Below are positions 5,737-54,900 of a stretch of DNA of 64,000 nt, one piece after another. The stretch lies in contig NC_054880.1 of the NCBI RefSeq assembly GCF_018320785.1, positions 1,360,827 through 1,424,826 on the forward strand. Direction: 5' to 3'. The translations under genes and the position numbers were made by a program. A model generated the notes under the pieces. It saw nothing but the letters and a program-made list of their open reading frames with translations. It was not told the origin of the DNA and searched no databases. The stretch comes from Cheilinus undulatus (taxonomy: Eukaryota; Chordata; Actinopteri; Labriformes; Labridae). Position 1 is the stretch's first letter, and each line of letters begins with the position of its first letter.

Positions 5737-7912
5737 ATGCCAGGAGTCGAGACACTGAGAGATTTTGTCAACCAGAGACTGACTGCTGCTGCTGAAGAGA
5801 TTTTTGGAGTCTTTGAAAGAACGATAGCAGAATACGAGGAACAACTTTGTCGATGTAAAGAGGAAAACGAGCGAAAACAGAAACTTCTGGACGATGTTCA
5901 GCTTCGCTTTCACAGAGCAGGTTTGTTCATTTTTCCGTCAGTCATTGTTCTCATTCTGTTTGGACCGACTTTAAACAAATGGACAGTGTTGCAGAAGAGG
6001 TTGTATTCTAAGCTTTACGGTAACGGTCGTCAACGGTTATTTTAACTTTTAGCCTATTATTAGTGCGTGTGACTGATTCCTGATATTTGGAGCCAATATG
6101 CATTTGTTATGACAAAGAAAATGTCCTTGATGTGGCAAAATTAAATCTGCATGTGAAAAAATGAAGGAGTAGCTCAGTCAACATGAGAAACAGCACAGAG
6201 TAACACAGAAACAGGAAAACAGGAAGTGGTGCTTTCCCTGTGTCAGTGCCACCCAGGCCTCAGAATTTAAAATAATCACATATTGACTTTTAGTTGTAAT
6301 CTTGGGGGTTGAGTGGGCGGGTTTTAATTCGATCATTCTCCCAAATCATTAAGCCCCACTATGAAACTGAACCAGGTGCTACATCAGTGGCAGCAACATT
6401 GAGCTGCTGACTTGATAAAAGTTCAATATTATTGTATTTGCATACAGTGATTCTGACTGGAATATTTAATCTACTGCTTGGATCTCTGAGGGCTTTATCC
6501 TATTTTAAATGTTTTTTAGGTGTAGGATCCCTAAAACGGTGTTTTTGCTGTTATTCTCTAAAATAAGGTTGGCATTCCTGATTTTGCATTATTTCAACCT
6601 TCTGCTTTAAGCTCTTAGCTCCCTTCTTTAAAAGACCCACTTTCAATTTGAAAACATCCCAAATCATTGGACCACCAAATGCTGGTTCAGAGGAAACAAT
6701 AACAAGCGTTCTCAGGGAATGTGTTCTGGGCTAAAATACATTTAATCAATGAAATAAAGGAGAGCAACAGTAGCAGTTAAATAATAAGAAATTCAAGAGG
6801 AGTACAGGATCCCTGTAAAAATATTTCAGAGCTATACCAGAGCATTATTTCTTTGTTACATTAAACCTCTGATTGTGGCATACTGGATTAGCATGCAGTT
6901 ATAATTTTCCATTCTGTTTGTGTTTTTGTGTATCTTTTATCCTGTAGACACCCAGCAGCTGTTAGTGCATCAAGAAGAGGTTCCCTCTGAGCAGCAGGAG
7001 TGGAGGTCCAGTCTAGAGCAGGAGGACACTGAGCCTCCACAGATTAAAGAGGAGGAGGAAGAACTGTGGAGCAGTCAGGAGGAACTGGAGGAGTTTAATA
7101 CCATCAAGTTCCCCTTTGCTCCTGTCCCTGTGAAGACTGAAGATGATGAAGAGAGACCTCAGTCCTCACAGCTTGATGAAATACAAAGTGAAGGGATGAA
7201 AACAGGAGCTGATGGAGAGGACTGTAGAGAACCAGGACAGGCCAGGAAGTCAGAATCAGAGAGACATTCCCACTCAGAGACTCAGGACAAGACTGGAGAC
7301 TGCTCTGAAGCTGAAACTGATGTCAGCGATGATTGGAGGATCACAATGGAACATGATTCTGGGTTAAATTGTGTGGAAAACTTAGATGATGATAGATCAG
7401 ACAATGACAAGAAATCACACAGCTGCAGTAAAACATTCACAAGGAAATGTCATCTTGCTACACATTTGAAGACGCACCAAAAACAGAAACCCTTCAGCTG
7501 CTCTGACTGTGGTAAAAAGTTTAGCCAAAAGATTAGTCTGAACACACACATGGTGATCCACACAGGAGAGAAACCCTTCAGCTGCCCTGAGTGTGATAAA
7601 AAGTTTAGAAACAAGTCTCATTTGAAGTCCCACATGTTTGTTCACACAGGAAAGAAACTCTTCAGCTGCTTTCAATGTGAAAAGGGGTTTTATTACAAGT
7701 CTCATCTGAAAAGACACATGGTGATCCACACAGGAGAGAAACACTTTAGCTGCCCTGATTGTGATAAAAAGTTTAGTCAAAAGTGTCACCTTACTTCACA
7801 CATGGTGATCCACACAGGAAATAAACCCTTCAGCTGTGAGCTCTGTGATAAGAAATTTTCATGGGATAGTCAGGTAAAAAAACACAAGTGTACCGGTGGC
7901 CAGACTTCATAA
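5737..7912 (+). CDS. Zinc-finger gene B (two exons, 382 aa)
   Basis: Exon 1 is 5737-5920 and exon 2 is 6948-7912, with a 1027-bp intron (donor CAG/GTTTGT, acceptor CCTGTAG). The ATG was chosen because A is at -3 and an in-frame TAA lies 25-27 nt upstream. Residues 1-61 (MPGVETLRDFVNQRLTAAAE...) are charged and helical with coiled-coil character, and are shared by all copies. Residues 62 to about 218 are the acidic hinge with IKEE and VKTE. The first finger is damaged: SHSCSKTF replaces SHSCSQCSKTF, an in-frame loss of three codons that removes one zinc cysteine. Four intact fingers follow (CSDC, CPEC, CFQC, CPDC) and then the atypical CELC...KKHKC end. Probably a DNA-binding repressor; the target is unknown. 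Confidence 0.9.
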
Positions 7913-7979
7913 AATAAGAGAAAGAAGAGCTAACGAGGAGGACTGTAAGATGAGAACCAGGCAGTATCTGAGATATGTA

Positions 7980-11055: not shown

Positions 11056-11059
11056 GGAT

Positions 11060-11394: not shown

Positions 11395-14300
11395 ATGCCA
11401 GGAGTCGAGACACTGAGAGATTTTGTCAAGCAGAGACTGACTGCTGCTGCTGAAGAGATTTTTGGAGTCTTTGAAAGAACGATAGCAGAATACGAGGAAC
11501 AACTTTGTCGATGTAAAGAGGAAAACGAGCGAAAACAGAAACTTCTGGACGATGTTCAGCTTCGCTTTCACAGAGCAGGTTTGTTCATTTTTTCCCTCAG
11601 TCATTGTTCTCATTCTGTTTGGACCGACTTTAAACAAATGGACAGTGTTGCAGAAGAGGTTGTATTCTAAGCTTTACGGTAACGGTCGGCAACGGTTATT
11701 TTAATTTCAGTGACCTTTTCTCCTATTTCTAAACCAGTTGTTACAGTCAAGGCTGGGAGACGTGATATGACCTTTCTGTGGTTCGAAGTGGCAACAATGT
11801 ACAATTTCAAGTCATCAAAATGTGTCTTTAAACTGAGGACGAACGATCTCATTGTGTTTTTTTTTTTTTGTCGTAACGCAGTATGTGTTTATGTTTTGAG
11901 TTCTTCATCATATGTATTTCTTAATGATACAAGACAACAATCACTCAATTTAAAAACCAACACAATATAAGACAGTGAAACTAGGGCTGAACAATCTTTG
12001 AAGAATATCTCATTGGGATCATTTTGACTTAGGCTATATTGCAAATTAAGTATAGTTGTATAGAAGGGAATTGTAGCATCCCTCCTGAATGAAGGACGTA
12101 ATGAATTAAAGTTATCTTAGCTTAATTCAAAACAAAACTTACAAAATAAAAAACTACAAAATGTTATAACTGTAGAAACGCCAAAGGGTCATCATTTAGA
12201 CTAAACTGGTTACTTACAGGAATAATAATTTGTACATCATTCTGATTTTGATAAAGAACAAAAACAAAGAATTAAGTGCAATTTGGGTGGCTTGGGGTGT
12301 AGGTTGTCCTTTGAACGGATCGTTGAGAGGTGTGAGGGGTTCTTTTCAAACCTGGTATAGAAGCTGTTCAGGTCTTCAGCCAGTCCAGGGTTTCCAGAGG
12401 GCGGGGGGGGGGGGGTGGGCTTCTGTGGTCGGTGATGTCTTTCAGGCCCTTCCACACTGACGCAGGGTCATTGGTCAACCGGTTTTTGTAGCTTTTCAGA
12501 GTAACTCCTCTTAGCTACTCTGATCTCCTTTGTCAGTGTGTTCCTGGCCTGCCTGTACAGAGCCCTGTCCCTGTTTCTGTAGGTCTCCTCCTTGGCCTGA
12601 TGCGGCTTCCTCAGGTTTGATGTGAACCAGGGTTTGCTGTTATTGAATGTGCAAAAGGTCTTGGTCTGCACACACATGTCCTCACAACAGCTGATGTAAG
12701 ATGTCATAGTAACAGTGAGTTCATTTAGGTCTGAGGCTGCAGCTGTAAAGATGGTCCAATCAAAGCAGGCCTGTAGCTCCAGCTTCCACTCCTCTGTCCA
12801 TCTCTTTACAGTCTTGACAACAGGCTTTGCAGATTTAATTTTCTGCCTGTAGGTTGGGATGAGATGAACCAGACAGTGATAAGAGAGCCCCAAAGCAGCA
12901 CGAGGTACAGAGCAATAGGCGTCCTTTAATATGGTGTAGCAGTGGTCCGGAGTGTTACTGTCCCTGGTGGGACACTTTAAATGCTGTCTGTATTTTGGTA
13001 GTTCGTTGGTGAGGTTTGCTCTGTTAAAGTCCCCTAGAATGATGAGCAGGGAGTTTTTTCTCCATGTCTGTTACCTGGTCGGCCAGGTGTTGCAGCGCCT
13101 CCATTACGCACACCTGAGCAGGAATGTAAACACAGACCAGGACGAACAAGGAGTGAATAAAAAGGTCTGCAGTTTATGAACAGAGTCTCTATGTGAGGAC
13201 TGCACGACTTCAACACTGTGACATCTGTACACCAACCTTGATTAACGTAGAAGCCCATTTCACCTCCCCTTTACTTCCCTGAAAGGTCCGTAGCACGGTC
13301 CGCTCAGAAGAGCTGAAAGCCCTGCCGCTGAAGCACGCTGCCTAGGATGTGTACACTGAGCCAGGTTTCAGTAAAACACAGGGCAGCAGAATGGCTCAAG
13401 TCCTTATTTTTTAGTTGAGGAGCAGCAACTCATCCATCTTGTTGGCCAGAGAGCAGACGTTCCCAAGATGTAGTGATGGGAGAGCTGTGTGTAATCCCTG
13501 CTTCGTAAGTTTAACAAGCGCTCCAGCGCGCCTCCTCCTTATCCCATAGAGAGCTGCTACTCCTCCCACCACAATCTCCGGAAAACTTTTCGGTTCAATG
13601 AGAACTGGGGAGAAAACTCCAGCAGTGGTTTTTCCATTATTCAGGAGCTCCTCTCTTGTGAATGTGATCACAGAGGGAGAGCAGAAAGCAAGAGAGAAAA
13701 AACAAAACCACTATAAATACTAGAGAGTGTAGTATCAGTGCGCCCTGCTGCAGCACCATGTTGGATCCCATTTGCGCCATCTTGGATACCATTAAAGCCA
13801 ACTTAATGCATTGTTTTTCTATACTTTATACGGTCTTGCAGGTTATTGTTGACTAGAAGTGCCTTCATGGGAACTGAGGTCAGACCCTCTTCAATGCTTT
13901 TCCTCTGGACATCATATGAGGGATTACACCAGCATATGATAGTGTCATGACCTGGTTCAGGTGGTCACAACAAAGAAGGGAGACACCATGGCAAAGTTTA
14001 AAACAAGTCTTTATTTTTCCAACCAAACCAATTTAAACCAAATTAAAAATTTAAATCAAACAGTTCTCTAATTAAACCGAATCAGGCCAAATCAAATAAT
14101 CAAATTCGGCAGTTTACTATTTAAACTGAATTAGACCAAGCTGAAGAGTCTAAAAAGCCAAATTAGTACAAATTAAATATTTGCAGCATGAAGTATGTAA
14201 GTCAGTAGAGTCAGTAGCATGGGATGTGCATGAGCGAAGGTAATGTGTGTAAATGTTGTAAAATGCAAACTTAGCTAAAGCTCGACCTAATCTAACATAA

Positions 14301-17300
14301 CTAAACCAAAGTGTGGTATACCTGTGGAGGCCAGGTCAGAGAGAGAGTGCATGTGTGACCGCAGGAGCTTAAATAACCTCCTCACTCGAAGCGCAGGTGT
14401 GTGACATTATGCTAATCAATGAGCTGCACTCACAGACACAGGCTGGAGACACTCAGGCTGACAACAGCAGACATCATATGTCAACAACACAGTAGTTCTT
14501 AATTGTGCTGCCCAGTAGTAATCTCTGAGTGACAGAAGACCCCATCCCCTTTTTTCTTTTGCCAGTTGTAAGGTTTTAAATGGAATTTGAGGCCTTTTAC
14601 CTTGCCATATGTATCAGGATAATATTTTCCCATTCTTTAAATTGTTTATGGCTTATTTCTATTGACAGGGTTTGAAATAGATATAATAATTTGGGTAGGA
14701 TGTTCATTTTAATTGAGTCTATTCTTGAGCTGAAACTTAAGTAAGGGATTAGATTCCATCTCGCTATATCCTCTTGAATTTTCTTTTGTTTCGGGGAATA
14801 ATTACATTCTAATAATTCTATGAGGTCCTTTGGTATTATGACTCCCAAATATTTAAAATGTTCTGTTTCCCATGCTAGATGGTACTTGCTCTTAACTTCT
14901 TCTGGTTGGCTATAATTTTATTTAAACAGTTGTGTTTTACTTATATTATTTTTGTTTCCTGTTGATTAATCAAAATATTCAAATGATTGCATTAGTTTAA
15001 GTAGAGAGTTTGTTGGTTGCCCTAGAAAGATCAGAATATCATCTGCATAGCAGGCTAGTTTATGCTCTTTCCCTTGAATGCTAATGCATTTTATTTCTTT
15101 GTTTTGTCTTATGTATTGAGTAAATGGTTCCAAATATAATGCAAATAATAGTGGTGAGCACGCGCAGCCCTGCCTTGTACCTCTTTCCAGAATACATTTT
15201 TTTGATAAATCACCATTAACTTTAATTCTAGCCGTGGGTTTATCATATAACGCCTGTATTGTTTGACTTGTTGTTTCATGCAGGCCAAATTTATGGAGAA
15301 CTCGATAGAGACAGCTCCAATCTACTGAATCAAAAGCTTTTTCTGCATCAATACTAATTACCATTGCTGCTATTTTATTCTTTTGGATGTGATTAATAAT
15401 TTGTAATCTCTGTTGTTTACTATCTTGCATCTGACGCTCTTGGATAAACCCTGTCTGGTCATTATTTATCAGATTAGACAGGAACTCCTCCAATCATCTA
15501 GCCATGATAGAAGTTAAGAGCATATACTCTATATTCAGAACTGAAATTGGTCTGTGTGATCTATATTCTTATTTATCTTTAGTTTCTTTTGGAATGGTGG
15601 AGATGATTTCTTCCTTCCAACTGGGCGATGTTTGTGCCTTCTTTAAAACACAATTAATGTAGGAAGCATCATTGGATGACCGGAATATTTAATTTACTTC
15701 TTGGATTTCTGAGGGCCTTATTTTAAGTGTTTTGAGGTGTAGGATCCCTAAAACTGTGCTTTTGCTGTTTTTCTGTAAAATAAGGTTGGCATTCCTGATT
15801 TTGCAGTATTTCTACCTTCCACTTTAAGCTCTTAGTTCCCTTCATTTAATGACCCACTTTCAATTTGAAAACACCCTAAATTATTGGACCACCAAATGCT
15901 GGTTCAGAGGAAACAATAACAAGGGTTCTCTGGGAATATGTTCTGGGCTAATGTATATTTTATCAAATAAATAAAGGAGAGCAACAGTAGCAGACAAATA
16001 CGAACCTCAGGAAGAGTACAGGATCCCTGAAAAAATACTTAAGAAAAATACCAGAGTATTATTTCTTTGTTACATTGAACATCTGATTGTGACACACTGG
16101 AGTAGCATGCAGTTATAATTTTCCTTTCTGTTCGTGTTTTTGTGTATCTTTTTGTCCTGTAGACACCCGGCAGCTGTTAGTTCATCAAGAAGAGGTTCCC
16201 TCTGAGCAGCAGGAGTGGAGCTCCAGTCTGGACCAGGAGGACACTGAGCCTCCACACATTAAAGAGGAAGAGGAGGAACTGTGGAGCAGTCAGGAGGGAC
16301 TGGAGGAGTTTAATACCATCAATTTCCCCTTTGCTCCTGTCCCTGTGAAGACTGGAGATGATGAAGAGAAACCTCAGTCCTCACAGCTTGATGAAATACA
16401 AAGTGAAGGGATGAAAACAGGAGCTGATGGAGAGGACTGTGGAGGACCAGGACAGGCCTGGAACTCAGAACCAGAGAGACATTTTCATTCAGAGACTCAG
16501 GACAAGACTGAAGCTGAAACTAATGACAGTGATGGTTGGAGGGTCTCAATGGAACATGATTACGGATTTAAATGTGTGGACAACTTTGGTGATGAGCGGT
16601 CAGAGAATGACAAGAAATCACACAGCTGCTCTCAGTGCAGTAAAACATTCAGATGGAAATGTCATCTTGTTACACATATGAGAACAAACCATAGAGAAAA
16701 ACCCTTCATCTGCCCTGAGTGTGGTAAAAAATTTGATCACAAGTGTCGTCTGGCGGCACATATGGTGATGCACACAGGAGAGAAACCATTTAGCTGCCCA
16801 GAGTGTGATAAAAAGTTTAACCGAAAGTCTACTCTGACTACACACATATTTGTCCACACTGGAGAGAAACCCTTCGGCTGCTCTGAGTGTGATAAAAAGT
16901 TTAATCAAAAGTCCATCTTAGCTAAACACATGTTGGTGCACACAGGAGAGAAACCGTTTAGCTGCTCTGAGTGTTATAAAAAGTTTAGCCAAAAGATCAC
17001 TCTGAACAGACACATGCTGGTGCACACAGGAGAGAAGCCATTTAGCTGCTCTCAGTGTGATAAAAAATTCAATCACAGTTCTACTTTGGCTAAACACATG
17101 TTGGTGCACACAGGAGAGAAGCCATTTAGCTGCTCTCAGTGTGATAAAAAATTCAATCACAGGTCTACTTTGGCTAAACACATGTTGGTGCACACAGGAG
17201 AGAAGCCATTTAGCTGCTCTCAGTGTGATAAAAAATTTAATCGCAAGTGTAATCTGGCTACACACATGAGGATGCACAGGAAAGACATCCTTCAGCTGTT

Positions 17301-17310
17301 AGTTCTGTGA
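11395..17310 (+). CDS. Zinc-finger gene C (two exons, 443 aa), alternative C-terminus
   Basis: Exon 1 is 11395-11578 and exon 2 is 16163-17310; the 4584-bp intron is swollen by two LINE fragments. Residues 1-61 are the shared domain (FVKQ version). In the hinge the second SUMO-type motif is lost (VKTG instead of VKTE). Eight fingers follow. The first has an H-x4-H ending (HMRTNH), and the sixth and seventh are encoded by an 84-bp tandem duplication differing by one base. After the eighth finger the frame departs from the family and ends HRKDILQLLVL; the usual terminal CELC...HKC module survives only as out-of-frame and partly deleted sequence downstream. Contact residues (-1, 3, 6) vary between fingers. 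Probable DNA-binding regulator. Confidence 0.88.
12240..13690 (-). mobile_element. LINE fragment (jockey/CR1-like), endonuclease and linker part
   Basis: On the minus strand the order is 13671 to 12240. It starts MITFTREELLN, continues through LGNVCSLANKMDELLLL and SPHIETLFINCRPFYS (apurinic endonuclease region), then LSYHCLVHLIPTYRQK, KTVKRWTEEWKLELQACFDW and KPWFTSNLRKPHQAKEETYR, and ends before the reverse transcriptase. Frames are interrupted in several places, so it is inactive. The matching 3' tail of the same kind of element is found separately near 59100-59400. Clade assignment is by eye. Confidence 0.75.
13691..14540. other. Intron C, unclassified sequence between two LINE fragments
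   Basis: This has no gene-like reading frame. The first 100 bases may be the 5' leader of the LINE to the left. The run from about 13940 (CATGACCTGGTTCAGGTGGTCACAACAAAG) has no counterpart in the introns of sister genes, so it is inserted DNA of a kind I cannot classify. Confidence 0.4.
14541..15665 (-). mobile_element. LINE-1/Tx1-like reverse transcriptase fragment
   Basis: On the minus strand, 15493-14966 encodes a reverse transcriptase core: DQTGFIQERQ, VISIDAEKAFDSVDW, GTRQGCACSPLLFALYLEP and CYADDILIFL (the YADD catalytic box). A second frame, 14848-14597, continues with MGVIIPKDLIELLE and RWNLIPYLSFSSRIDSIKMN. The spacing and motifs fit the L1/Tx1 clade. Both ends of the element are missing. 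Unique intron sequence shared with sister genes resumes near 15680. Confidence 0.85.
17041..17208 (+). repeat. 84-bp tandem duplication of one zinc finger in gene C
   Basis: 17041-17124 and 17125-17208 match except for one base (T at 17079, G at 17163), which changes FNHSSTLAKH to FNHRSTLAKH. Each unit encodes exactly one finger plus linker. This is a recent finger gain by unequal exchange or slippage. Confidence 0.95.
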
Positions 17311-20270: not shown

Positions 20271-23200
20271 ATGCCAGGAGTCAAGACACTGAGAGATTTT
20301 GTCAAGCAGAGACTGACTGCTGCTGCTGAAGAGATTTTTGGAGTCTTTGAAAGAACGATAGCAGAATACGAGGAACAACTTTGTCGATGTAAAGAGGAAA
20401 ACGAGCGAAAACAGAAACTTCTGGACGATGTTCAGCTTCGCTTTCACAGAGCAGGTTTGTTCATTTTTCCCTCAGTCATTGTTCTCATTCTGTTTGGACC
20501 GACTTTAAACAAATGGACGGTGTTGTAGAAGAGGTTGTATTCTAAGTTTTACGGTAACGGTCGTCAACGGTTATTTTAATTTCAGTGACGTTGTCTCCTA
20601 TTTCTAAACCAGTTGTTACAGTCAAGGCTGGGAGACGTGATATGACCTTTCTGTGGTTCCAAGCGTCAACAATGTACAATTTCAAGCCACCAAAATGTGT
20701 CTTTAAACCGAGGAAGAACGATCTAATTGTGATTTTTTTTGTTGCAATGCAGTATGTGATTATGTTTTGAGTTCTTCATTTGTATTTTTTAACGACACAC
20801 GAAAAAAATCATTTAATATAAAACCAACGCAACAAAAGATAGTGATAAGATCGACAATCTTCAAAGTATATCTAATTGAGATCATTTTCACTTATATTGT
20901 AAATTCAGTATCCATTGTTGTAGTGAAGGGAATTGTAGCATCCCTCCTGAATGAATGACAGTTGACTCTTGTTCTGATGATTTTCGTGGTTTATTTTAAC
21001 TTGACAACATCAAACAGTCAAACTAAACTGGTTCCTTACAGGAATGATAATTTGTACATCATTCTCATTTTGATTAAGAAAAAAAAAAACAATAAAAGTG
21101 GGATTTTGTGAATTATTCTTAGACTAGCTCTTGACTGTGTGCCTGATGTGTAGGACGTCGAATCTCTGATGTGGAGAAAAAAAATGATTAACTGGTATTT
21201 TGACTTCAGGTTAAAGAAATGGTTCACCATTTGTAATTTGAAAATTTCATTAGGATATGTTGTGATTTGATCTACATTTTGACAGTCACACGCACTAGTG
21301 CTGCACAGTTAATCTAATCACAATTGCAATGTCAGACTTTGCAATAACAAAACTGCATACAGGGCTGCAATTATTATTTTATAAAGAAGTTTGAAAATGG
21401 TTTTATTTATTTTTCAACACTACTTAATATTTGTATCTTTTTGATGAGAGATACACACTTCAAATGTTTCATTATTCTCTGTATTTTCCTTGATAACCAT
21501 GCACGTACACTCATGATACCATTTATTTATTAGATTGTTTTCACATTTGACAATATTGTCCAGTAAGGGTCAACCAATAATGTTGAATTTTTCAGGCCTG
21601 ATATCAATACAGATTATTATTAGCGCATGTGACTGATTCCTGATATTTGGAACCAATATGCATTTGTTATGACAAAGAAAATGTCCTTAATGTGGTAAAA
21701 GTAAATCTGCATGTGAAAAATGAAAGAGTAGCTCTGTCAGCATGAGAAACAGCACAGAGTAACACAGAAACAGGAAAACAGGAAGTGATGCTGTCCCTGT
21801 GTCAGTGCCACCCAGGCCTCAGTGCTGATTGGCTGGTAGTTGCTGGTCAGGTAGTATTGTGGACAGAACAGGTGAGACTGCAGAGAGTGAAAACAAACCC
21901 AGAGAGGAAGACACACCTTGCAGTGAAGCCAAAATAATATGTCTTTTGATGAAATGATTTTAGCTGATGATCAGGACAATGAAATGCAGACACCAATAAT
22001 CAGCTAAATGTCAAATATCTGCATTAATAATTATCCAGGCTGATAATCAGTCCACCCCTAATGTCCAGTATAATTGCAATTACATATTTTTACCACATTG
22101 TGCAGCACTACTCAAAAAGTTCAAACTTGACAAACAAACAAGCAGTAGCTAAAACAGATAATTTTACCAATCAATTCAAGTTCACAGTTTGTCTTCTTGT
22201 CAGTCCTGCAGTTTTTATGTTTATATTTGCATTGCATCAGTTATGATAAAAACAGGAAAAAAAACATGGTCCAAATATTTGTTTGGAGATGTAGATGAGT
22301 CTTTGTTTAACCAGGAATGGTGCCATGAAATGGGGCTGTGCAATATTTCTTCATTGTGTCAAAATACCAGTTTAATGCATATTTTTGCAACAGAGATGTT
22401 CTAATCCACACATTATTTAAGCAGTCATATGTAATTTTTTTCTAGAATAGTTTGCAAAAACATTCTTCTTCAGTCCCATTCAGCCCTATGTAGAATAGTT
22501 TATTTTACTTATGTTGAAAAAATACACAAGATGGGGAATTTAAAAATAATCACATATTCACTTGCAGTTGTAATATTGGGGGTTGAGAGGGGATGGATTA
22601 AGATCATTTTCCCAAATCATTAAGCCCCACTATGAAACGGAACCAGGTGCTACATCGGTGGCAGCAAAATTGAGCTGCTGACTGGATTAAAAAGTTCAAT
22701 ATTATTGTATTTGAATACAGTAATTATGACTAGAATATTTAATCTACTTCTTGGATCTCTGATGGCCTTATTTTTAGTGTTTTTTTTAGGTGTAGGATCC
22801 CTGAAACTATGTTTTTGCTGTTATTCCCTATAATAAGTTTGGCATTCCTGATTTTGCATTGTTTCTACCTTCTACTTTAAGCTCTTAGTTCCCTTCTTTT
22901 AAAGACTCACTTTCAATTTGAAAACATGCTAAACATTTGGACCACCAGATGCTGGTTCAGATGAAACAATAACAAGGGTTCTCAGGGAATATGTTCTGGG
23001 CTAAAATACATTTAATCAAGGAAATAAGGGAGTGCAAAAGTAGCAGTTGACGAATGTGAAACTCAGGAGGAGTACAGGATTCCTGAAAAAATATTTAAGA
23101 AATATACCAGAGCATTATTTCTTTGTGACATTGTACCTCTGGTTGTGACACACTGGAGTAGCATGCAGTTATAATGTTCCATTCTGTTTGTATTTTTGTG

Positions 23201-38500: not shown

Positions 38501-39385
38501 GAGGAAGAGGAGGAACTGTGGAACAGTCAGGAGGGACTTGATGAGGTTTATACCGTCAAGTTCCCCTTTGCTTCTGTTTCAATGAAGACTGAAGATGATG
38601 AACAGAAACCTCTGTCCTCACAGCTTGATGAAATACAAAATGAAGGGATGAAAACAGGAGTTGATGGAGAGGACTGTGGAGGACCAGAAAACGCCAGGAA
38701 CTCGGAACCAGAGAGACATTCACATTCAGAGACTCAGAACAAGACCGAAGACTGCACTGAAGCTGAAACTGATGACAGTGATAATTGGAGGATCACAATG
38801 GAAAATGATTCTGGATTAAACTGCGTGGAAAACTTTGATGATGATAGATCAGACAATGACAAGAAATCACACAGCTGCTCTCAATGCAGTAAAACATTCA
38901 GGAGGAAATGCCATCTTGCTATCCATATGAGAATACACCAAAAAGAGAAACCCTTAAGCTGCTCTGACTGTGGTAAAAGATTTAAGTTTAAGTCAAGTCT
39001 GACTAAACACATGGTTATCCACAGAGGAAAGAAGCCCTTTAGCTGCTACCAATGTGAAAAGGTATTTAATTACAAATCTCAGCTGAAATCCCACATTTTG
39101 CTGCACACAGGAGAGAAGCCCTTCAGCTGCCCTCAGTGTGATAAAAAATTTAATCGCAAGTCTAATCTGGCTATACACATGGTGATCCACACAGGAGAGA
39201 AACCCTTTAGCTGCACTGAGTGTGATAGAAAGTTTACCCAAAAGTCTAATCTGAACACACACATGTTAATTCACACAGGAGAGAAACCTGTCAGCTGCTC
39301 TGAGTGTGATAAAAAGTTTTACCAAAAGTCACATCTGACTTCACACATGGTGATCCACAGAGGAGAGAAACCCTTCAGCTGTTAG
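32590..39385 (+). CDS. Zinc-finger gene F (two exons, 389 aa), ends one finger early
   Basis: Exon 1 is 32590-32773 and exon 2 is 38400-39385. The 5626-bp intron holds an L2 LINE, a Tc1 fragment and a hAT MITE, and lacks about 200 bp just after the donor compared with sister genes (the donor GTTTGT is kept). Residues 1-61 are the shared FVNQ version. Exon 2 starts DNQQLSVTPEE and has the F-H hinge (EQEGTEPPHLKEEEEELW, GLDEVYTVKF). Six full fingers follow, from CSQC...HMRIH to CSEC...HMVIH. The protein stops after KPFSC, because the GAG that begins the family's last module (CELC) is TAG. The rest of that module is still visible downstream. Whether loss of this atypical end matters is unknown. 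Confidence 0.88.
33347..36730 (-). mobile_element. L2-type LINE, about 2.9 kb plus a nested Tc1 piece
   Basis: On the minus strand, an ORF1-like part (36500-36170: MPPLSSDDYHKLLQKIAALE, coiled coil) is followed, after a Tc1 insert, by the end of the endonuclease (TLDLLISKDLN, then LSDHCCVLFESSI) and a long reverse transcriptase frame (34653-33679: LLDLSAAYDIFDHNILLDRL, GVPQGSILGPLLFNIYMLPL, YHNYADDTQLYI). The 3' end at the left is the common fish L2 tail (GTTTATTTGTATAGCACATT) finishing in GGCAA repeats. Most of the endonuclease is missing and frames are interrupted. The empty site is visible in the introns of A, E and H. Confidence 0.88.
35720..36170 (-). mobile_element. Tc1-like transposon fragment nested in the L2 LINE
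   Basis: The minus strand reads MGRSQELSEFQHGTVIGCHL, then SSRDISLLLNIPQSTVSGI and SGRPRKMMEQGQQMLRRVVR, ending LQTSCGLQISSRTV. This is the paired helix-turn-helix region at the N-terminus of a fish Tc1 transposase. It begins at a Tc1-type end (ATACTTTTGGCAATATAGCG, then TA at about 36170). The catalytic half is missing: at about 35720 the sequence switches directly to L2 (GDTLDLLISK). Confidence 0.85.
36766..37806. mobile_element. hAT-type MITE, 1041 bp, with 8-bp target duplication
   Basis: The ends are CAGGGGTGTCAAACTCAAGG and its inverse TTGAGTTTGACACCCCTG. The 8-bp duplication ATCTAAAC flanks both sides (36758-36765 and 37807-37814). The interior is a degenerate AT-rich tandem array built on TTTTGACTTTTATCTCAT-like words, with no transposase. 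Genes A and H show the uninterrupted site (GATTATCTAAACGTTGA). Confidence 0.93.
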
Positions 39386-41918: not shown

Positions 41919-44900
41919 ATGCCAGGAGTCGAGACACTGAGAGATTTTGTCAAGCAGAGACTGACTGCTGCTGCTGGAGAGATTTTTGGAGTCTTTGAAA
42001 GAACGATAGCAGAATACGAGGAACAACTTTGTCGATGTAAAGAGGAAAACAAGCGACAACAGAAACTTCTGGACGATGTTCAGCTTCGCTTTCACAGAGC
42101 AGGTTTGTACATTTTTCCCTCAGTCATTGTTCTCATTCTGTTTGGACCGACTTTAAACAAATAAACAATGTTGCACATCGATATCAAGACGTAGATAGCG
42201 CGTTTGCTAGCTGCCTTCGTGGCCGCCATCTTGGCACGGGCAAAAGAGTGAGAGTTCAACAGAGTTCTATGGACAGACAGCATTTCAATGCCACAGATAC
42301 GGTAGGTTCAGGACCAACCTCCAACCGTTGTTTGTTACAAGTTGTTGCCTAACCTAAAGTAAAATGCAACAGCTGAGAGGAAATGTGGAATCCATCCCCG
42401 CTATGTGCATGTACTGTCATTTGATTGTGAAAGCCAGACTGGTCATTATGATGTTTCTGGCAGGTAGCTTGGACCTCCTTGTTGTTGCTTTAAGTATTTT
42501 TTTTTTTCACTCAGTGTTATTTTTAATAATGTAATTAAGTACAACACTTAAAATATACAACTAATGAGTTATATTCATATACATTAGTTCTTCTCCCCCA
42601 CTCCAAAAATATAATTGCCTTAATTTTCTGCTCTCCCAAAGACCCATAAATCAGTCATCAGAAGCACTGGCGGAGTTAGGGGGTGGCTACATGGGCTTAA
42701 GCCCCGGATGTTTTCATTAAAGCCCTGTACGTTTTTGGTCTCAGAGGGACTCGCCCCTCCGTTAAGTTATTGATTGTGTGTGAATTTGGGATGATGTGAG
42801 TGCTCTTGTTGTCAAAATATTATTATTATAGATTATTTGCACCGTGGAGAGAGAGTCAGTGTGCGGCGTGCTGTGCTGTCAGTCTGAGTATCAGTTTGAT
42901 TTAGGCTTTTAGACAACATAAAGATAATCAGATAAGCCAGAAACATTCAGCTTTAACTTCTGTCTTTTCTTCTTTGTTTTGCCACTTTTTGTTGTGCCAT
43001 AAAGAAACGTTAACCCAGAAAAGAAATCACGAGAAATTAGAAATCATGTGACTCGTCCTGTCGGGACTTTTACCTGTTGAGGCTTTAGTTTTCCTCATGT
43101 AGCTCTCTTTCTGCCCACCATGGATGATCAGCTCAGAAAGGTTTACTGGAAAAATGCCCTGACATTTTTGGAATCTGCTCGTGGCTCTGCAAGTGTTAAA
43201 GACAGAAATTCATCCCCTTCATGAGTAACAAAGCTGAGATCGGCCGTTGTGTCCTCACATACTATGCACTGCAAACTCAAAACTCACCAGGTGAGAAAAG
43301 GCGTGAAGGCTCCCAGTGTATGCCTGCCTTTAGATTAAAGGCCAGTTGTGAGATGAGAGGGGAGAAATTATCTGTATGAATCTATTTGGAGAAACAAAAA
43401 CTATCTAATTATAGATTTCACGTATTTGCAATTATCAAACACAGGTGCTCTTAGGTCTCAAGGAAAAGTTCATGATACCTTGGGGGGGGGTTGAGTTAAA
43501 ATAATCACATAATAATCTGTATATTTACATACATTTGCACATATTTGGATACTTTCTTCTTTCTCTGTGACATGTTTTACATCGAATCTTATTTTACTGA
43601 CAGCAATCGAGTCATCCTTCTCTCCTGGGAACAAAATAACCTTTAGGCAAAATGTTATTCAAAAGCTAGCTTAACCGCGGATATTAATCCACTTAACAAC
43701 AACCTTAGGGAAATTGCCTCTGAACGTGTTGTTATTCTAGCAAAATATGATAAAAAACAACTATTAAACTTACCCATGAAATGGATTTCACGCGGTTTTG
43801 TCTCTTCTATGAATTTATTAGAGCAGCCCCATGCAGCACAGGAGTGAGGAATCTTGCCCAGGAATGGCGTTGACGTACGGCCCACTGGCCAATGCTGCGT
43901 CTACGTATATTATGTCTATCTTGTGCCTGATGTGTAGGACTTAGAATCTCTACTGTAAAGAAAACATATTAAAATGGTATTTTGGCATCAAGTTAGAGAA
44001 ATATTTCACCTTTTGCAATTAGAAAATTGCATTAGGATATGTTGAGATTTAATCTAAATTTTGACAGTCCTACACACAAACCTGCATACAGGGCTGCAAT
44101 TATTATTTTATTAAGAAGTTTGTAAAAGGTTGTATTAATTTTCAGTACTACTTAATATTTGTTTATTTTTTTGTTGAGAAAAACACGCCTCATATCTGTC
44201 ATTATTCTCTGCATTTTCCTTGATAACCATGCACATACACTCATGATACGATTTATTTATTATATTGTTTGCACAGTTGACAACATTGTCCAGTAAGGGT
44301 CAACCAATAATGTTTTTTCAGGGCCGATATCAATACAGATTATTAGAGGTGCATGTGACTGATTCTTGATATTTGGAGCCAGGATGCATTTGTTATGACA
44401 ACAAAAATGTCCTTAATGAGGTAAAAGTAAATCTGCATTTGAAAGAAATGAAGGAGTAGCTCTGTCAACATGAGAACCAGCACAGAGTAACACAGAAACA
44501 GGAGAACAGGAAGTGATGCTGTCCCTGTGTCAGTGCCACCCAGGCCTCAGTGCTGATTGGCTGGTAGTTGCTGGTCAGGTAGTATTGTGGACAGAACAGG
44601 TGAGAGCGCAGAGAGTGAAAACAAAACCAGAGAGGATGACACACCTTGCAGTGAAGCCAAAATAGCACATCTTTTGATGAAATGATTTTTGCTGATGATC
44701 AGGAAAATGAAATACAGACACTAATAATCAGCTAAATGCCAAATATCTGTATGAGTAATTAGCCAGGCTGATAATCGGTCCACCCCTGATGTCCAGTATA
44801 ATATACTGAAAAAGACTTGGGGGATCACGTGATGCACCGACTTGAGTAGACGTGAAAGTTTCAACTCCCGGCTGGACTGCAACAAACTTTATTTTTCAGC

Positions 44901-47900
44901 TAATATTTTGTTCGTGAAAACCTCGCCGAATGCACGTTAGTCTCATAATGTCACTTGACGTGTATTTCATGCAGCTGGTTGGGAAAGATGTAAACTCTGT
45001 GGGCACGCTGTCAGTTCTGGTGTAAGTGTAGAGCTTTGTTTTGCTGCTAGTGATGGAGCACCAGGTCGCTGCGTTCGTATTCGCCGGCCCATGCTACCTC
45101 AATAGGTAGCATTCAGTAGTCTCCTGGTGATCAGGCAGTGCTCTGTTGCAGTTACTGGCAGTTGTTGTTAGCTTTTAAGCTAGCCAGGAATTTGAAATGA
45201 GACTGAGGTTTTCTTTTCACTTTTTGGGGGTTTTTCTTGATGGAAATTTCCCATTCTTTCTTTCAAAGGTGTCCTGGACCATCCATCTTCTTTGCTTTCA
45301 TAAGTTTCAACATATGTTGTCAGCTAAATTGTGAAAAACACTACAAGTCCAAGAATAACTCAAGAGTACATTTTTCTTTCTGCCAACTGCTCTGGTTGCC
45401 CAGCAACAGGGTAATCATCATTACCCTGATTACACCGATTAACAGAAAATTCTACAAGCAGCCAGAAACCAAGGCATGTTAAACATTGCGGGCAGTGACG
45501 TCTCCTTTTACCAGGATTTTTCCACGGAGGTTGTGAGAAAGACAAAGGGGTCTGCAAAATGTACAATAACAGCTGAGAGAAGCTGGGATAAGATATGACT
45601 TTCTGTACCCTGCTGTCATCAAAATCTTCCACCCAAATGGTACCAATTCCACATTTCCTACCATGCAGGAAATCAATGACTACATCCACAAAATTAAGCC
45701 AGCGAAATAATCCTCTGACTATGTAGGTAGTTGCATCTGTATTGCTACAGGTATGAATGTTTGTTAAGGAACAATCTAAAGCATTGTGTCTCCTACTCAA
45801 AGTGCTAAGTATGCTGAAGTTCCCTTCTTCCCTGTACGAATATTGTTGTTTATCTACTGGTACCTGAACAATGCTAGTCCAGTAATTGGAAACTGAGGGA
45901 TTTTTTTTTGTCTTTGCTTCTGATTCTCAAAACTGTACTAATTAGGTATAATAGTCCAACTAGGTACCATTTTATTATTCTATGTTTACATATTTGTTTT
46001 CTTTTCATGTATGTGTTACTAATGCCCCCTGTTCAGATGTCAGTGTTCCTGAGTGTGTTTAGGTTTTGCTCAGAACCCATTCTTTTGTTGCGCAAAATTT
46101 ACTCTGCTTTTCTGGCGGACGGAGTGGTCCAAACTATATTTAAATGTTTGGCGACAGCCTTTTTTTCCATGACAAAAAAACAAGACTAAGCCTAACAAAA
46201 ATAGATCTATGATGACTAAAACTGACAAAAACTGAATTTAGTTTTCATCAATCTGACTAAAACTAGACTAAAATGTAATGTAGTTTTCGTCAGACATGCA
46301 AAACCTGTAATATTTCTTTACTGTGGGTAAGTTAATTCTTAAGAAGAATACCAGAGCAATATTTATTTGTTACATTGTACCTCTGATTGTGGCACACTGG
46401 AGTTGCATGCAGTGATAATGTTCCATTCTGTTTGTGTTTTTGCATTTCTGTGTGTCCAACAGACAACCAGGAGCTGTCAGTGACTCCAAAAGAGGTTCCC
46501 TCTGAGCAGCAGGAGTGGAGTGCCAGTCTGGAGCAGGAGGGCACTGAGCCTCCACACCTTAAAGAGGAAGAGGAGGAACTGTGGAGCAGTCAGGAGGGAC
46601 TGGATGAGGTTTATACCATCAAGTTCCCCTTTGCTCCTGCCCCTGTGAAGACTGAAGATGATGAAGAGAAACCTCAGTCCTCACAGATTCATGAAATACA
46701 AAGTGAAGGGATGAAAACAGGAGCTGATGGAGAGGACTGTGGAGGACCAGAGCAGGGCAGGAACTCAGAACCAGAGAGTCATTTACATTCAGAGACTCAG
46801 GACAAGACCGAAGACTTCTGTGAAACTGAAACTGATGACAGTGATAATTGGAGGGTCACAATGGAACATGATTACGGATTAAAATATGTGGAAAATTTTG
46901 ATGATGATAGATCAGACAATGACAAGAAATCACACAGCTGCTCTCAATGCAGTAAAACATTCAGGAGGAATTGTCATCTTGTTACACATATGAGAACACA
47001 CCAAAAACAGAAACCCCCGAGCTGCTCTGTCTGTGGTAAAAGATTTAAGTTTAAGTCAAGGCTAACTAAACACATGATTAGCCACACAGGAAAGAAACCC
47101 TTTAAGTGCTCTAAGTGTGATAAGAAGTTTAACCAAAAGTCTCAGCTGACTGAACACATGGCTAGCCACATAGGAGAGAATCGATTTAGCTGCTCTCAAT
47201 GTGATAAAAGATTTTATCACAAGTCTAAGCTGAACACACACATGTTGGTGCACACAGGAGAGAAACCCTTCAGCTGCCCTCAGTGTGATGAAAACTTTAA
47301 TCGCAAGTTTCTTCTGGTTACACACATGTTGATGCACACAGGAGAGAAACCCTTCAGTTGCTCTCAGTGTGGAAAGGGATTTCATTACAAATCACAGCTG
47401 AAAAGACACATGTTGGTGCATACAGGAGAGAAGCCATTTTGCTGCCCTCAGTGTGATAAAAGATTTTATCACAAGGGCAGTCTGGTTAAACACAATGTGA
47501 TCCACACAGGAGAGAAACCCTTTAGCTGCACTGAGTGTGATAAAAAGTTTAATCAAAAGAGTCATCTGAACTCCCACATGTTGGTGCACACAAGAGAGAA
47601 ACCCTTCAGCTGCTCTGAGTGTGATAAAAAGTTTAGTGAAGGGTCTCAGCTGAACTCCCACATGTTTGTTCACACAGGAGAGAAGCCCCTCAGCTGCCCT
47701 CATTGTGAAAAGGGATTTCATTACAAATCACAGCTGAACTCTCACATGTTGGTGCACACAGGAGAGAAGTCCCTCAGCTGCCCTCAGTGTGATAAAAAAT
47801 TTAATCGCAAGTCTAATCTGGTTGCACACATGGTCAGTCACAAAGGAAAGAAGCCCTTCAGCTGCTCTCAATGTGAAAAGGGATTTCATTACAAGTCTCA

Positions 47901-48624
47901 GCTGAACTCCCACATGTTTGTTCACACAGGAGAGAGGCCATTTAGCTGCCCTCGGTGTGATAAAAGATTTTATCACAAGTCTAGTCTGGTTACACACATG
48001 GTAAGCCACACAGGAGAGAAAACCTTTAGCTGTAATGAGTGTGATAAAAAGTTTCAGGACAACTCTCATCTGAACTGCCACATGGTTATCCACACAGGGG
48101 AGAAACCCTTTAGCTGCTCTGAGTGTGATAAAAAGTTTTATCGAAAGAGCCAGCTGAACTTTCACATGTTTCTTCACACAGGAGAGAGGCCATTTAGGTG
48201 CTCTAAGTGTGATAAAACATTTCAGAGAAAGTCTATTCTAAAAAATCACATGCAAATTCACAGAAAAGAGAAACACTTCAGCTGCCGTAAGTGTGATGAA
48301 AAGTTTATCGAAAAGTCTCAGCTGAACTCCCACATGTTTGTTCACACAGGAGAGAAACCCTTCAGCTGCTCTCAATGTAAAAAGGGATTTAATTTCAAGT
48401 CTCAGCTGAACTCTCACATGTTGGTGCACACAGGAGAGAAGCCCTTTAGCTGCCCTCAATGTAATAAAAAATTTAATCACAGGTCTAATTTAGTTAAACA
48501 CATGGTGATTCACACAGGAGAGAAACCCTCCAGCTGCCCTGAGTTAGCTAAAAAGTTTAGCCACAACTCTAATCTGACTTCCCACACAGTGATCCACACA
48601 GGAGAGAAACCTGTCAGCTGTTAG
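41919..48624 (+). CDS. Zinc-finger gene G (two exons, 781 aa), largest finger array
   Basis: Exon 1 is 41919-42102, exon 2 is 46463-48624, intron 4360 bp with inserted repeats. The N-terminal domain has the most changes in the array (AAAGEIFG for AAAEEIFG, ENKRQQ for ENERKQ). The hinge is the F-H type with LKEE and VKTE. There are 19 intact C2H2 fingers and a 20th that has lost its second cysteine (CPELAKKF). The frame then ends at KPVSC, with TAG in place of the GAG of the usual CELC module. Contact residues (-1, 3, 6) run RHT, FRK, QQE, HKT, RLT, YQR, HSK, QHS, EQS, YQS, RNA, YQS and so on. So many fingers could read a long DNA site, although not all need bind. Confidence 0.92.
42160..43930 (-). 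mobile_element. Inserted DNA in the intron of gene G, with a THAP-like fragment
   Basis: The shared intron sequence breaks soon after 42165 and resumes near 43920 (TGTGCCTGATGTGTAGGAC). On the minus strand near the right end, 43885-43750 reads IPHSCAAWGCSNKFIEETKP. This resembles the start of a THAP zinc-binding domain (C-x4-C, WGC), as used by host THAP proteins and P-element-like transposases; the distal C-x2-H is not seen. ACGTAGA occurs near both ends in opposite orientation, which hints at terminal repeats. Near 42665, GGCGGAGTTAGGGGGTGGCT looks like another repeat end. The rest is unclassified. Confidence 0.45.
44815..45720 (+). mobile_element. Possible L1/Tx1-like LINE ORF1 remnant
   Basis: The insert starts after the shared TCCAGTATAAT run at about 44803. 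On the plus strand around 45480-45690, broken frames recall the C-terminus of an L1-like ORF1: a run resembling SPFYQDFSTEVVRKTKG, then ERSWDKI, YPAVIKIFHPNGT and MQEINDYIHKIK. The frame is interrupted several times. The assignment rests on this weak protein likeness. Confidence 0.45.
45721..46320. other. Intron G, unclassified and low-complexity sequence
   Basis: No gene is visible. From about 46180 the sequence is rich in GACTAAAACT-like words, the complement of the TTTTAGTTTT repeats found before the first exons. It is absent from the matching place in sister introns. Confidence 0.35.
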
Positions 48625-49960: not shown

Positions 49961-50234
49961 GTGTGTATATCTGAGCAAATATACATGATCTTTTTTCCTT
50001 TTTTTTTTCAACAAAAGACAACATGTTGAACGTGTATTTTATTATCATTCTTGTGCATGTCAGGATGACTTGGAGAAAGGTGCTTTTTTGAGCTGCAATA
50101 TTTTTAATGTCTCTACAATTAACGACACTGTAGTAGCATGGACAACCAACGTTTTTATGTGTGTTTTTTTTAACTGAGGAATCGGATATAGCCTATTTAA
50201 CATGCCATCATCTGAACAAGTTACATATATTATT

Positions 50235-50395: not shown

Positions 50396-50409
50396 TTACG
50401 TATATTATT

Positions 50410-51620: not shown

Positions 51621-51624
51621 TGAA

Positions 51625-51958
51625 GGACACGAACAGCGTTGCACCGGAAGTGATTATTATTGCGAACGCCTTACGCTGTATTTAGCAACATGGCGGCGAA
51701 TCAGAGCAATTTTTAATCTGCGTCACTTTGTTATGAGAGATTATCGATTCTAATTCCTCATTCTGTCAACTGAATGGACTTTAAGCTTTAAATGTTTTTC
51801 TCAGTTTTCTCTCCCTCAGTCATCTACCCATAAACTACAAAGCTAGCTTAGCTTAGCATTCAAACTGGAGATATGAGTGGTGAAACAGTCAAAGTTGCTG
51901 TTTGATGGAGTGGTTGTAGTGTTTTCCAGAATAAATCAGCCAGTAAAACTGTGTGAAA
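51625..51958 (+). promoter_or_regulatory. Promoter and 5' UTR of gene H
   Basis: CACCGGAAGTGAT (51642-51654) and CAACATGGCGGC (51686-51697) are intact at the usual distance before the conserved leader. Confidence 0.62.
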
Positions 51959-54900
51959 ATGCCAGGAGTCGAGACACTGAGAGATTTTGTCAACCAGAGA
52001 CTGACTGCTGCTGCTGAGGAGATTTTTGGAGTCTTTGAAAGAACGATAGCAGAATACGAGGAACAACTTTGTCGATGTAAAGAGGAAAACGAGCGAAAAC
52101 AGAAACTTCTGGACGATGTTCAGCTTCGCTTTCACAGAGCAGGTTTGTTCATTTTTCCCCTCAGTCATTGTTCTCATTCTGTTTGGACCGACTTTAAACA
52201 AATGGACAGTGTCGTAGAAGAGGTTGTATTCTAAGTTTTACGGTAACGGTCGTCAACGGTTATTTTAATTTTAGTGCCTTTTTCTCCTATTTCTAAACCA
52301 GTTGTTATAGTCAAGACGTGATATGACCTTTCTGTGGTTCCAAGCGTCAACAATGTACGATTTCAAGCCAACAAAATGTGTCTTTAAACTGAGGAAGAAC
52401 GATCTAAATTTGGGAAAATATTTTGTGACTGATTGTATTTTAAGTTCTTCATCATATGCATTTTTAACGACGCAAGAAAAAAAAATCTATATATATTAAC
52501 CAACAAAATATAAGATAGTGAAACTAGGGCTGAACAGTTTTAAAATATATCTAACTGATCATTTTGACTCATATTGCAAATTGGGTACACACAGTTGTTT
52601 TGAAGTGAATGATGGTTTCTACATCATTCTCATTTTGATTAAGAAAAAAAATAACATAAAGAAGAAAAGTAGTTTTTTTGTAAATCATTCTATCTAAAAA
52701 ATTAACTTAACTGTGTGCCTGATGTGTAGGGCTTAAAATCTCTGCTTTCGCCAAAATATTAAACTGGTATTTTGACACATCAAGTTTGAGAAATATTTCA
52801 CCTTGGACATGTTGTGATCTGATCTAAATTTTGACAGTCTTACGCACTAGTGCTGCACGATTAATTTAATAACAAGTGCAATGGCAGGCTTTTTAGTAAA
52901 AATCCTGCATACAGGGCTGAAATTATTATTGTATTTTGTAGCTCTTGAAAGATTCATAAAATAGTGGCAGAAAGACTTTTAGGTTTACGATGTTTCCTCT
53001 GCCGCTATGCAGGAGTATATTTACCCTTATAAACTTATATTTTGTCTAGAAGATTATTGAATTATTTTGAAAGTAGTGCTGCAGATTCACTTGGTACACA
53101 GACACACACACACACACACCCACACCACACACACATATATAATATCGTAATGTCCACCCCTAATGTCCAGTATAACTGCAATCACACATTATTACCATAT
53201 TGTGCAGCACTAGAGGAGTCTGTGTTTAACCAGAAATAATGCCGTGAAATAGGGCTGGGCACTCAATTGAAATTTGGATTAAACACAATAAATCTTTCTG
53301 CGATTTTCAAATCACAAAAGCTGCAATATATGTTGATACTGAAATCTGTGTCAAAATCCCAGTTTAATATAATTTTAGCAGCAGAGATGTTAGGATTGGC
53401 ACATTATGCAAACATTCGTGTCATTGCAATTTGATTATCTAAACGTTGAGCCCTACTATGAAGTTGAACAGGATATTGCATCAGTAGTAGCAACATTGAC
53501 CTGCTGACTTGATTAAAAAAAAGTTCATTATTATTGTATTTACATGGATAAATACTTCAGTGATAATATATTATATATTATAATATACTTCTTGGATCTC
53601 TGAGGGCCTTGTTTTACATGTTTTGTTCTGTAGGATCTTTTAAACTATTTTTTTTCTTTTTTGCTTTTATTCTCTATATTTTTGGCATTCCTGGTTTTGC
53701 ATTGTTTCAACCTTCTGCTTTTAGCTCTTAGTTCCGTTTATTTAAAGACCATTTGAAAACATCCTAAATATTTGGACCACCAAATGCTGGTTCAGAGGAA
53801 ACAATAACAAGAGGAATATGTTTTGGGCAAAAGGACTTAACAACTATACCAGATCATTATTTCTTTGTTTCATTGAACCTCTGATTGTGACACGATGGAG
53901 TTGCATGCAGCTCTAATGTTTCATTCTGTTTGTGTTTTTGCATTTTTGTGTGTCCAACAGACAACCAGGAGCTGTCAGTGACTCCAGAAGAGGTTCCCTC
54001 TGAGCAGCAGGAGTGGAGCTCCAGTCTGGAGCAGGAGGGCACTGAGCCTCCACACCTTAAAGAGGAAGAGGAGGAACTGTGGAGCAGTCAGGAGGGACTG
54101 GATGAGGTTTATACCATCAAGTTCCCCTTTGCTCCTGTTTCAGTGAAGACTGAAGATGATGAAGAGAAACCTCTGTCCTCACAGCTTGATGAAATACAAA
54201 GTGAAGGGATGAAAACAGGAGCTGATGGAGAGGACTGTGGAGGACCAAGACAGGCCAGGAACTCAGAACCAGAGAGACATTTACATTCAGAGACTCAGGA
54301 CAAGACTGGAGACTGCTCTGAAGCTGAAACTGATGACAGTGATGATTGGAGGGTCACCATGGAAAATGATCCTGGACTAAACTGTGTGGAAAACTTTGAT
54401 GATGATAGATCAGACAATGACAAGAAATCACACAGCTGCTCCCAATGCAATAAAACATTCAGATGGAAATGTCATCTTGCAATACATATGAGAATTCACA
54501 CAGGAGAGAAACCGTTCAGCTGCCCTGAATGTAGTAAAAGGTTTAATGAAAAAGGAGGTTTGCTCCAACATATGAGAATACACCAAAAAGAGAAACCTTA
54601 CGCCTGCTCTGACTGTGATAAAAGATTTAAGTTTAAGTCAAGTCTGGCTCCACACATGTTAGCTCATACCGAACAGCATCACTTCGGCTGCTCTGACTGT
54701 GGTAAAAGATTTAAGTATAAAGTTAGTCTGACCAAACACATGCTGAGTCACACAGGAGAGAAACCCTTTAGCTGCCCTGAGTGTGACAAAAGATTTAAAC
54801 ATAAGGCTTATCTGAAATCGCACATGTTTCTTCACACAGGAGAAAGGCCATTTAGCTGCTCTAAGTGTGATAAAACATTTAACAAAAAGTCTACTCTGAC

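Follow-up and report, generated by a model that had tools for sequence, protein, structure and literature searches.

A near-identical first-exon domain and SUMO-type hinge motifs in an expanded zinc-finger gene family of Cheilinus undulatus

KRAB zinc-finger genes carry their effector on an exon of its own, lie in clusters and have fast-changing fingers. Other families of zinc-finger proteins (ZNFs) have been described that are relevant here. The FiNZ-ZNFs of cyprinids repress transposons (PMC10547256). Their FiNZ domain has 28 residues and is reported to be unique to cyprinids (Wells et al. 2023, PMC10547256), and its authors state that it is not known how these proteins repress or whether FiNZ recruits anything. 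Some ZNFs of actinopterygians have an N-terminal KRAB-like region, for which docking was reported, as was a co-immunoprecipitation consistent with the binding of TRIM33 by an eel protein (PMC9101882, PMC11603059). In ZNF746 and ZNF777, the DUF3669 domain oligomerises, and repression by ZNF746 needs the lysine of a downstream SUMO site; the authors say that SUMO attachment was not formally shown, and the segments of DUF3669 proteins that they tested had no stable association with TRIM28 (PMC6923878). SUMOylated KAP1 binds SETDB1 (PMC4303303). Here, we analyse a tandem cluster of C2H2 zinc-finger genes in a window of 64,000 nt of Cheilinus undulatus (C16:1360827-1424826, in a genome of 1.17 Gb and 46 contigs), and in particular the 61-residue domain encoded by their first exon.

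Our best model is that these genes encode a two-part effector, made of a helix that would self-associate and of a hinge that would accept SUMO, on top of diversifying fingers, and that the 5' end of the genes is homogenised within clusters by a separate process. We give this model a probability of about 0.5. All gene models were read from the sequence. They make up eight units of an effector exon separate from tandem C2H2 fingers, seven of which are wholly inside the window:

2237..3042, forward strand: exon 2 of gene 0, acidic hinge and fingers (exon 1 outside the window)
5737..5920, forward strand: exon 1 of gene A, 61 codons plus 1 nt, phase-1 donor
6948..7912, forward strand: exon 2 of gene A, acidic hinge (154 residues) and fingers
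11395..11578, forward strand: exon 1 of gene B
16163..17310, forward strand: exon 2 of gene B, hinge and fingers
20271..20454, forward strand: exon 1 of gene C (VKTL variant)
23219..24114, forward strand: exon 2 of gene C, hinge and fingers
27008..27191, forward strand: exon 1 of gene D
29226..30532, forward strand: exon 2 of gene D, hinge and fingers
32590..32773, forward strand: exon 1 of gene E
38400..39385, forward strand: exon 2 of gene E, hinge and fingers, stop within the last finger
41919..42102, forward strand: exon 1 of gene F (AAAGEIF / NKRQQ variant)
46463..48624, forward strand: exon 2 of gene F, hinge and 19 fingers, stop within the last finger
51959..52142, forward strand: exon 1 of gene G
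53961..55267, forward strand: exon 2 of gene G, hinge and fingers

The initial annotation had described seven first exons with a nearly identical domain and a few replacements, and all of this was recovered. The seven copies lie on the forward strand, and each has 61 whole codons and one base followed by GT, which gives a phase-1 intron. The domain starts with MPGVETL or MPGVKTL and alternates between N and K at residue 12; VKTL is found in the exon at 20271, and AAAGEIF and NKRQQ in the one at 41919. The letters D and G used in that annotation would make sense if its gene A was the one whose finger exon ends at 3042. Exon 1 copies pair one-to-one with the exons encoding the acidic hinge and the zinc fingers, so the domain does have its own exon, in phase 1, preceding an acidic hinge. 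The acceptor of gene B (...tgtag, then AC), read directly, restores an Asp codon, which is also compatible with the frames in which the remaining finger exons are read. The first exon of gene 0 begins 1,281 bp before the window.

The domain belongs to a large family. Searching this genome at the protein level gave 221 candidates, of which 150 were scored and all 150 matched, with expectation values (E) from 2e-35 to 2.9e-5; the domain thus matches at least 150 places, a lower bound, on 15 contigs, of which C16 is the richest. Because of these matches, its occurrence in the window is not due to chance. The initial annotation also saw it as widespread in teleosts, which may hold; the spread computed here is that within one genome. 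For the comparison of exons we sampled 132 hits on 128 loci, some of which overlap (L001-L008 among them), and dropped six hits in which the ATG or the phase-1 donor was missing. The remaining 126 exons comprise 115 distinct DNA sequences and 112 distinct proteins; 47 diverse members were picked for alignment from 70 representatives of these 115 exons. A hinge and finger exon lies downstream on the same strand in 17 of the 20 C16 loci having about 7 kb of downstream DNA, and likewise in 4 of the 5 loci on C5, C2, C9, C24, and C6. The exon 1 of L083 and L088 has a longer N-terminal extension (MSAAEAFLLQLEKGAAEAAGVPALRALL...) ahead of the shared core.

Profile searches place this domain in no characterised family, and uphold the earlier statement that it is not KRAB, SCAN or BTB. 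For two window variants, no Pfam family scored above its curated cut-off, and SCAN, BTB, KRAB (PF01352), and DUF3669 (PF12417) gave no match at E up to 10. For the 47 diverse members, the best E was 0.0014 among the best 25 of 35 families, with neither SCAN nor BTB among them. NCBIfam, a prokaryote library, gave no match for one domain sequence, a search of PDB gave nothing better than E 0.08, and none of the 7 pattern matches in viral contigs was confirmed. Literature searches with sequence strings found no paper containing any of them, and word searches, judged on titles and abstract openings, found none naming it. A few candidates were discarded. The Pfam matches of the window domain to Med9, RUFY4, and TSC22 are under the curated cut-offs and resemble chance similarity between coiled coils, the remaining weak matches of the 47 members are scattered over unrelated families, and the TAF1 bromodomain and the other PDB matches (E 0.08 or worse) were taken as chance. 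Homology to KRAB was also rejected, since profile-profile comparison (hhalign) with five KRAB segments gave a probability of 0.3% (0.6% on re-run); of these segments the first was verified, solely through matches to KRAB proteins in PDB. A genome-wide search for KRAB found none either, in a scan whose control also found none.

The domain had been described as helical, which agrees with the monomer prediction. AlphaFold2, given the 7 near-identical window copies, predicts one 54-residue helix (residues 7-60) with a mean predicted local distance difference test score of 91.8 and a predicted template modelling score (pTM) of 0.59. The hydrophobic periodicity of residues 6-37 is matched by 67 of 5000 shuffles, and R8, R14, L15, A18, Y33, E34, and L51 are conserved in at least 90% of the 47 diverse members. 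Dimer formation by the domain, also suggested in the initial annotation, is plausible.

The second exons encode an acidic hinge of 150-157 residues before the fingers. The most conserved feature of the putative effector is found here, in tandem SUMO-consensus motifs that look like a SUMO attachment site:

7043..7054, forward strand: SUMO-consensus motif 1 (IKEE) in the hinge of gene A, at the aligned place in 8/8 window hinges
2332 (gene 0), 16258 (B), 23323 (C), 29321 (D), 38495 (E), 46558 (F), 54056 (G), forward strand: computed starts of motif 1 in the other genes
7130..7141, forward strand: SUMO-consensus motif 2 (VKTE, then DDEE) in the hinge of gene A, in 7/8 window hinges (VKTG in gene B)

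The psi-K-x-E motif occurs 62 times in 25 hinges, against a mean of 6.9 and a maximum of 16 in 1000 shuffles; all 25 hinges have at least one and 24 have at least two. We also used a set of 22 genes, made of 21 genes from outside the window (four of them from other contigs) and a single window gene to represent the cluster. They carry 57 motifs, at least two in every gene, whereas the shuffled mean was 6.6 (maximum 16, 2000 shuffles) and the reversed motif was found 3 times. Of 120 columns, just two are identical in all 22 genes, the K and E of motif 1 (K33 and E35). Acidic residues follow many of the motifs, and an acidic type of SUMO site, with acidic residues after the motif, is known. The conserved psi-K-x-E sites are hence beyond chance, and SUMO attachment is predicted from them.

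The earlier statement that the finger regions have changed greatly is borne out by the 60 fingers with a full linker, among which there are 47 different contact quartets. Entropies at positions -1, 3, and 6 (2.87, 2.89, and 2.76, respectively) are the highest of the 28 finger positions; that of a non-contact neighbour reaches 2.71, and contact position 2, at only 1.52, is not unusually variable. This diversity is the pattern that would be expected of repressors chasing their targets. Genes E and F stop inside the finger that is the final one in the other genes, and the C-terminus of gene B is also different.

In the model, the effector module of this large, expanded C2H2 family would have two parts, with exon 1 as its N-terminal half. 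The long helix of exon 1, with a hydrophobic stripe, would most likely self-associate as a coiled coil and so gather the hinges encoded by exon 2, which would supply the SUMO-acceptor psi-K-x-E motifs, at least two of them in almost every gene examined. The fingers would select the DNA target and diversify at their contact positions. We infer that the SUMO-modified hinge recruits chromatin silencers at the bound sites, for example SETDB1 or NuRD via SUMO-binding partners, and that these sites are most likely transposons. By analogy with KRAB-ZNFs and cyprinid FiNZ-ZNFs, the family probably consists of transposon repressors.

Several points weigh against this model, whose support comes from sequence and structure prediction. 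The prediction, of an isolated helix in one chain from 7 near-identical sequences, is uninformative on partners and has a pTM of 0.59; hydrophobic periodicity across residues 6-57 lacks significance, since 446 of 2000 shuffles reach it. The psi-K-x-E motif is short, the segment is Glu-rich and the genes are related, so that motifs are not independent events. Relatedness inflates their count, but the hinges are well diverged, with a mean non-synonymous distance of 0.40 among 17 C16 genes from outside the window. The lysine of the second motif (K62) is replaced by R in one gene and by M in another, out of 18. Finally, Q3 is identical in all of the 21 genes, out of 22, with a letter there, and T111 is invariant in the 18 genes of an earlier set; their conservation indicates that SUMO is not the only constraint on the hinge.

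The main rival is direct recruitment of TRIM33. Exon 1 would then be a functional counterpart of KRAB, whose helix binds a co-repressor of the TIF1 family (TRIM33 in fish), and the hinge a mere linker; its domain and the 'KRAB-like' domain of ray-finned fish may even be one and the same. We consider this possible, if rather unlikely. Both effectors have the same position, on their own exon, but the negligible profile-profile probabilities given above argue against a relation, as does the prediction of a single helix, which the KRAB fold is not. The Leu at residue 37, named for the KRAB-like domain, is also present here, whereas Tyr and Glu occupy the positions of the Glu 33 and Asp 42 named for it, provided that the two numberings correspond (PMC9101882, PMC11603059).

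Besides the two-part effector, the model involves the homogenisation of the 5' end. The initial annotation called the domain almost invariant, and this is true of the DNA too: 0-6 of 186 nt differ between the exons, silent sites included. The similarity extends beyond the exon, in a block that we read as homogenised:

5537..6020, forward strand: 5' block of gene A, given as example (from some 200 bp before exon 1 to some 100 bp into intron 1)

The mean identity between window copies is 91-99% per bin in this block (21/28 pairs for the intron bin), and lower outside. Upstream, it is 96-98% in the first 200 bp, falls to 70-87% as far as about -500, and is around 50% beyond. In intron 1, it is 91-95% over the first 100 bp among the pairs that align (21/28; 15/21 in another comparison), then around 70% and lower; the intron of gene E diverges immediately after the donor. 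A second cluster, around 0.7 Mb away on the opposite strand, has copies with a similar identity profile. The mean silent distance (dS) in the window is 0.025 for exon 1 and 0.102 for the hinge, a fourfold difference, and exon 1 has the lower value in 28/28 pairs and in 396/400 codon bootstraps. Between clusters there is no overall silent deficit in exon 1: dS is 0.70 for exon 1 and 0.57 for the hinge when window genes are compared with others (136 pairs), and 0.62 and 0.74, respectively, among the others (135/136 pairs, one missing). There is hardly any upstream conservation between subfamilies, since identity in the 150 bp before exon 1 is 95.8% in the 47 pairs with exon-1 dS < 0.1 and 65-67% in 773 other pairs, against 62.7% after shuffling. 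Because the silent sites of exon 1 and the upstream DNA are near-invariant, hinge dS is fourfold higher and exon-1 dS is normal between clusters, we infer that the near-identity within the cluster is probably due mainly to recent homogenisation of the 5' block between neighbouring genes, and not to protein constraint alone. The process is probably gene conversion in young clusters, acting on a block of around 500 bp while exon 2 diverges. A reading of the block as a mobile cassette was set aside, because its borders differ between clusters.

The evidence for homogenisation has its weak sides. The low dS of exon 1 rests on around 40 silent sites per pair, the pairs are non-independent, and the 95% bootstrap ranges overlap slightly (0.000-0.075 for exon 1, 0.065-0.144 for the hinge). 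The dS of exon 1 equals or exceeds that of the hinge in 41/135 pairs among the other genes and in 86/136 pairs between these and the window, which is expected on the homogenisation reading because only young pairs would be homogenised. Constraint on exon 1 is weaker in young pairs, with dN/dS (non-synonymous over silent distance) of 0.55 and 0.64 at dS < 0.3. Four further close pairs were examined, of which two repeat the pattern of a uniform 5' block, one (L043/L044) is unclear, its upstream DNA not matching ungapped and a single block of 89.4% entering an intron repeat, and one (L049/L050) is too short to judge. In L043 and L044, intron 1 has a tandem array from the end of exon 1 on, with matches stepping by about 50 bp; a finger exon was looked for over about 7 kb and not found.

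The seven genes could also be plain recent tandem duplicates in which exon 2 alone diverges fast, with no need for conversion, and we find this improbable. The cluster is tandem and on one strand, upstream similarity fades at around -500 as it does at duplicate borders, and L043/L044 are without a clear 5' block. Plain duplication fits poorly with a silent divergence that is four times higher in the hinge than in exon 1 of the same genes, yet similar between clusters. It fits no better with the two pairs that repeat the pattern: 5' blocks of around 530 bp are 99.1% identical in L045/L046 and 96.8% in L037/L047, versus 89.3% and 91.4% for their exon-2 regions, and no intron aligns between.

Two further alternatives fare worse than plain duplication. 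The strong acidity of the hinge would suit a transcriptional activation segment, with IKEE and VKTE as by-products of a Glu/Lys-rich composition, but the counts in the 22 genes (57 motifs, against 6.6 in shuffles and 3 for the reversed motif) and the identity of K33 and E35 in 22/22 make this very improbable. Unusually strong purifying selection on the protein, which the first description of the domain implied, is largely contradicted and more doubtful still: although seven residues of exon 1 are at least 90% conserved and, among genes outside the window, constraint is stronger on exon 1 than on the hinge (dN 0.18 versus 0.40, dS 0.62 versus 0.74), silent sites within the cluster show as little variation as replacement sites, the first 200 bp before the exon are nearly as invariant, and the within-cluster dN/dS of 0.445 indicates no stronger constraint than the 0.28-0.43 of diverged copies (dS > 0.3). 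These dN/dS bins leave out 1521 of 6555 pairs, saturated at silent sites. The values point to a long-term protein constraint on exon 1 that is real but moderate.

A second N-terminal, helical-looking family was found in this genome, with 19 matches on C4, C13, C21, and C10. Its consensus, from L134-L139 on C4 and C13, is FQSQLASIMEVLANAAVAEICKLVDD, and two members scanned gave no Pfam match over the cut-off. Profile-profile comparison with the exon-1 domain gave a probability of 78% with E 1.8e-5 (72% on re-run), against at most 4.8% for 60 column-shuffled profiles and 0.6% for a reversed profile. The two are distinct sequence classes and possibly one superfamily, but shuffling also destroys the helix periodicity, and a common coiled-coil pattern could explain the match. 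Finger exons were not found at six loci of this family in around 1.5 kb downstream (a further 3 kb for L134).

Other elements lie among and beside the zinc-finger genes. Pieces of reverse transcriptase (PF00078), remnants of retroelements, are found between them on the reverse strand (14966-15493 and 33679-34653). At 59646-62080, also on the reverse strand, reading frames with leucine-rich repeats and TIR occur in pieces that resemble a toll-like receptor gene or its remnant, and a further leucine-rich reading frame is at 62234-62962.

The SUMO-type hinge suggests how such zinc-finger proteins could silence mobile DNA. If the uniform 5' block and helix do contrast with diverging fingers as we propose, the family would be a clear case of concerted evolution acting on only half of each gene. 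It resembles the tetrapod KRAB zinc-finger genes in having an effector exon before tandem C2H2 fingers, in its clusters and in the rapid change of fingers. It differs from them by the lack of sequence similarity to KRAB, the predicted single long helix and the SUMO-type hinge. The actinopterygian 'KRAB-like' ZNFs also have an N-terminal region followed by fingers; they are said to be widespread in ray-finned fish, with a proposed role in silencing with TRIM33, and we compared them by description.

The family is also like the cyprinid FiNZ genes, with an expansion in a fish lineage, an N-terminal domain on the first exon, fingers on the second, a Glu-rich composition, and variable contacts. The reverse complement of the translation-blocking morpholino against FiNZ (PMC10547256) reads MAFIKEE from the ATG. 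FiNZ hence has, at its start, the IKEE motif that also occurs in the hinge, where its K and E are invariant. The comparison was made on seven FiNZ residues, and the place of the motif differs, IKEE being in exon 2 in this family and at the start of the protein in FiNZ. The exon-1 domain itself is unlike FiNZ, having 61 residues instead of 28 and starting with MPGVETL or MPGVKTL, with no resemblance to those seven residues. Literature searches found no paper combining FiNZ, SUMO, zinc finger, and zebrafish. Tentatively, with the odds against it, the two families might share an IKEE-type, SUMO-acceptor mode of silencing that replaces KRAB-TRIM28 in animals lacking it and in which the self-associating N-terminal helix is exchangeable. 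On this view the homology of FiNZ, as a SUMO-acceptor peptide, would lie with the hinge and not with KRAB, and conversion would keep the 5' block, helix included, uniform as the fingers chase transposons. With tandem SUMO-type motifs in the hinge and the IKEE motif recurring at the start of FiNZ, the question of the FiNZ mechanism becomes one that lysine mutation can test.

By analogy, the closest mechanistic precedent that we found is that of ZNF746 and ZNF777. DUF3669 differs from the exon-1 domain in its 95 residues and in being restricted to amniotes by its authors' definition, and the two window variants had no Pfam match to it. The architecture is nevertheless alike, with an N-terminal oligomerising domain followed by a segment with a SUMO-site lysine, both of them predicted in the case of the family described here.

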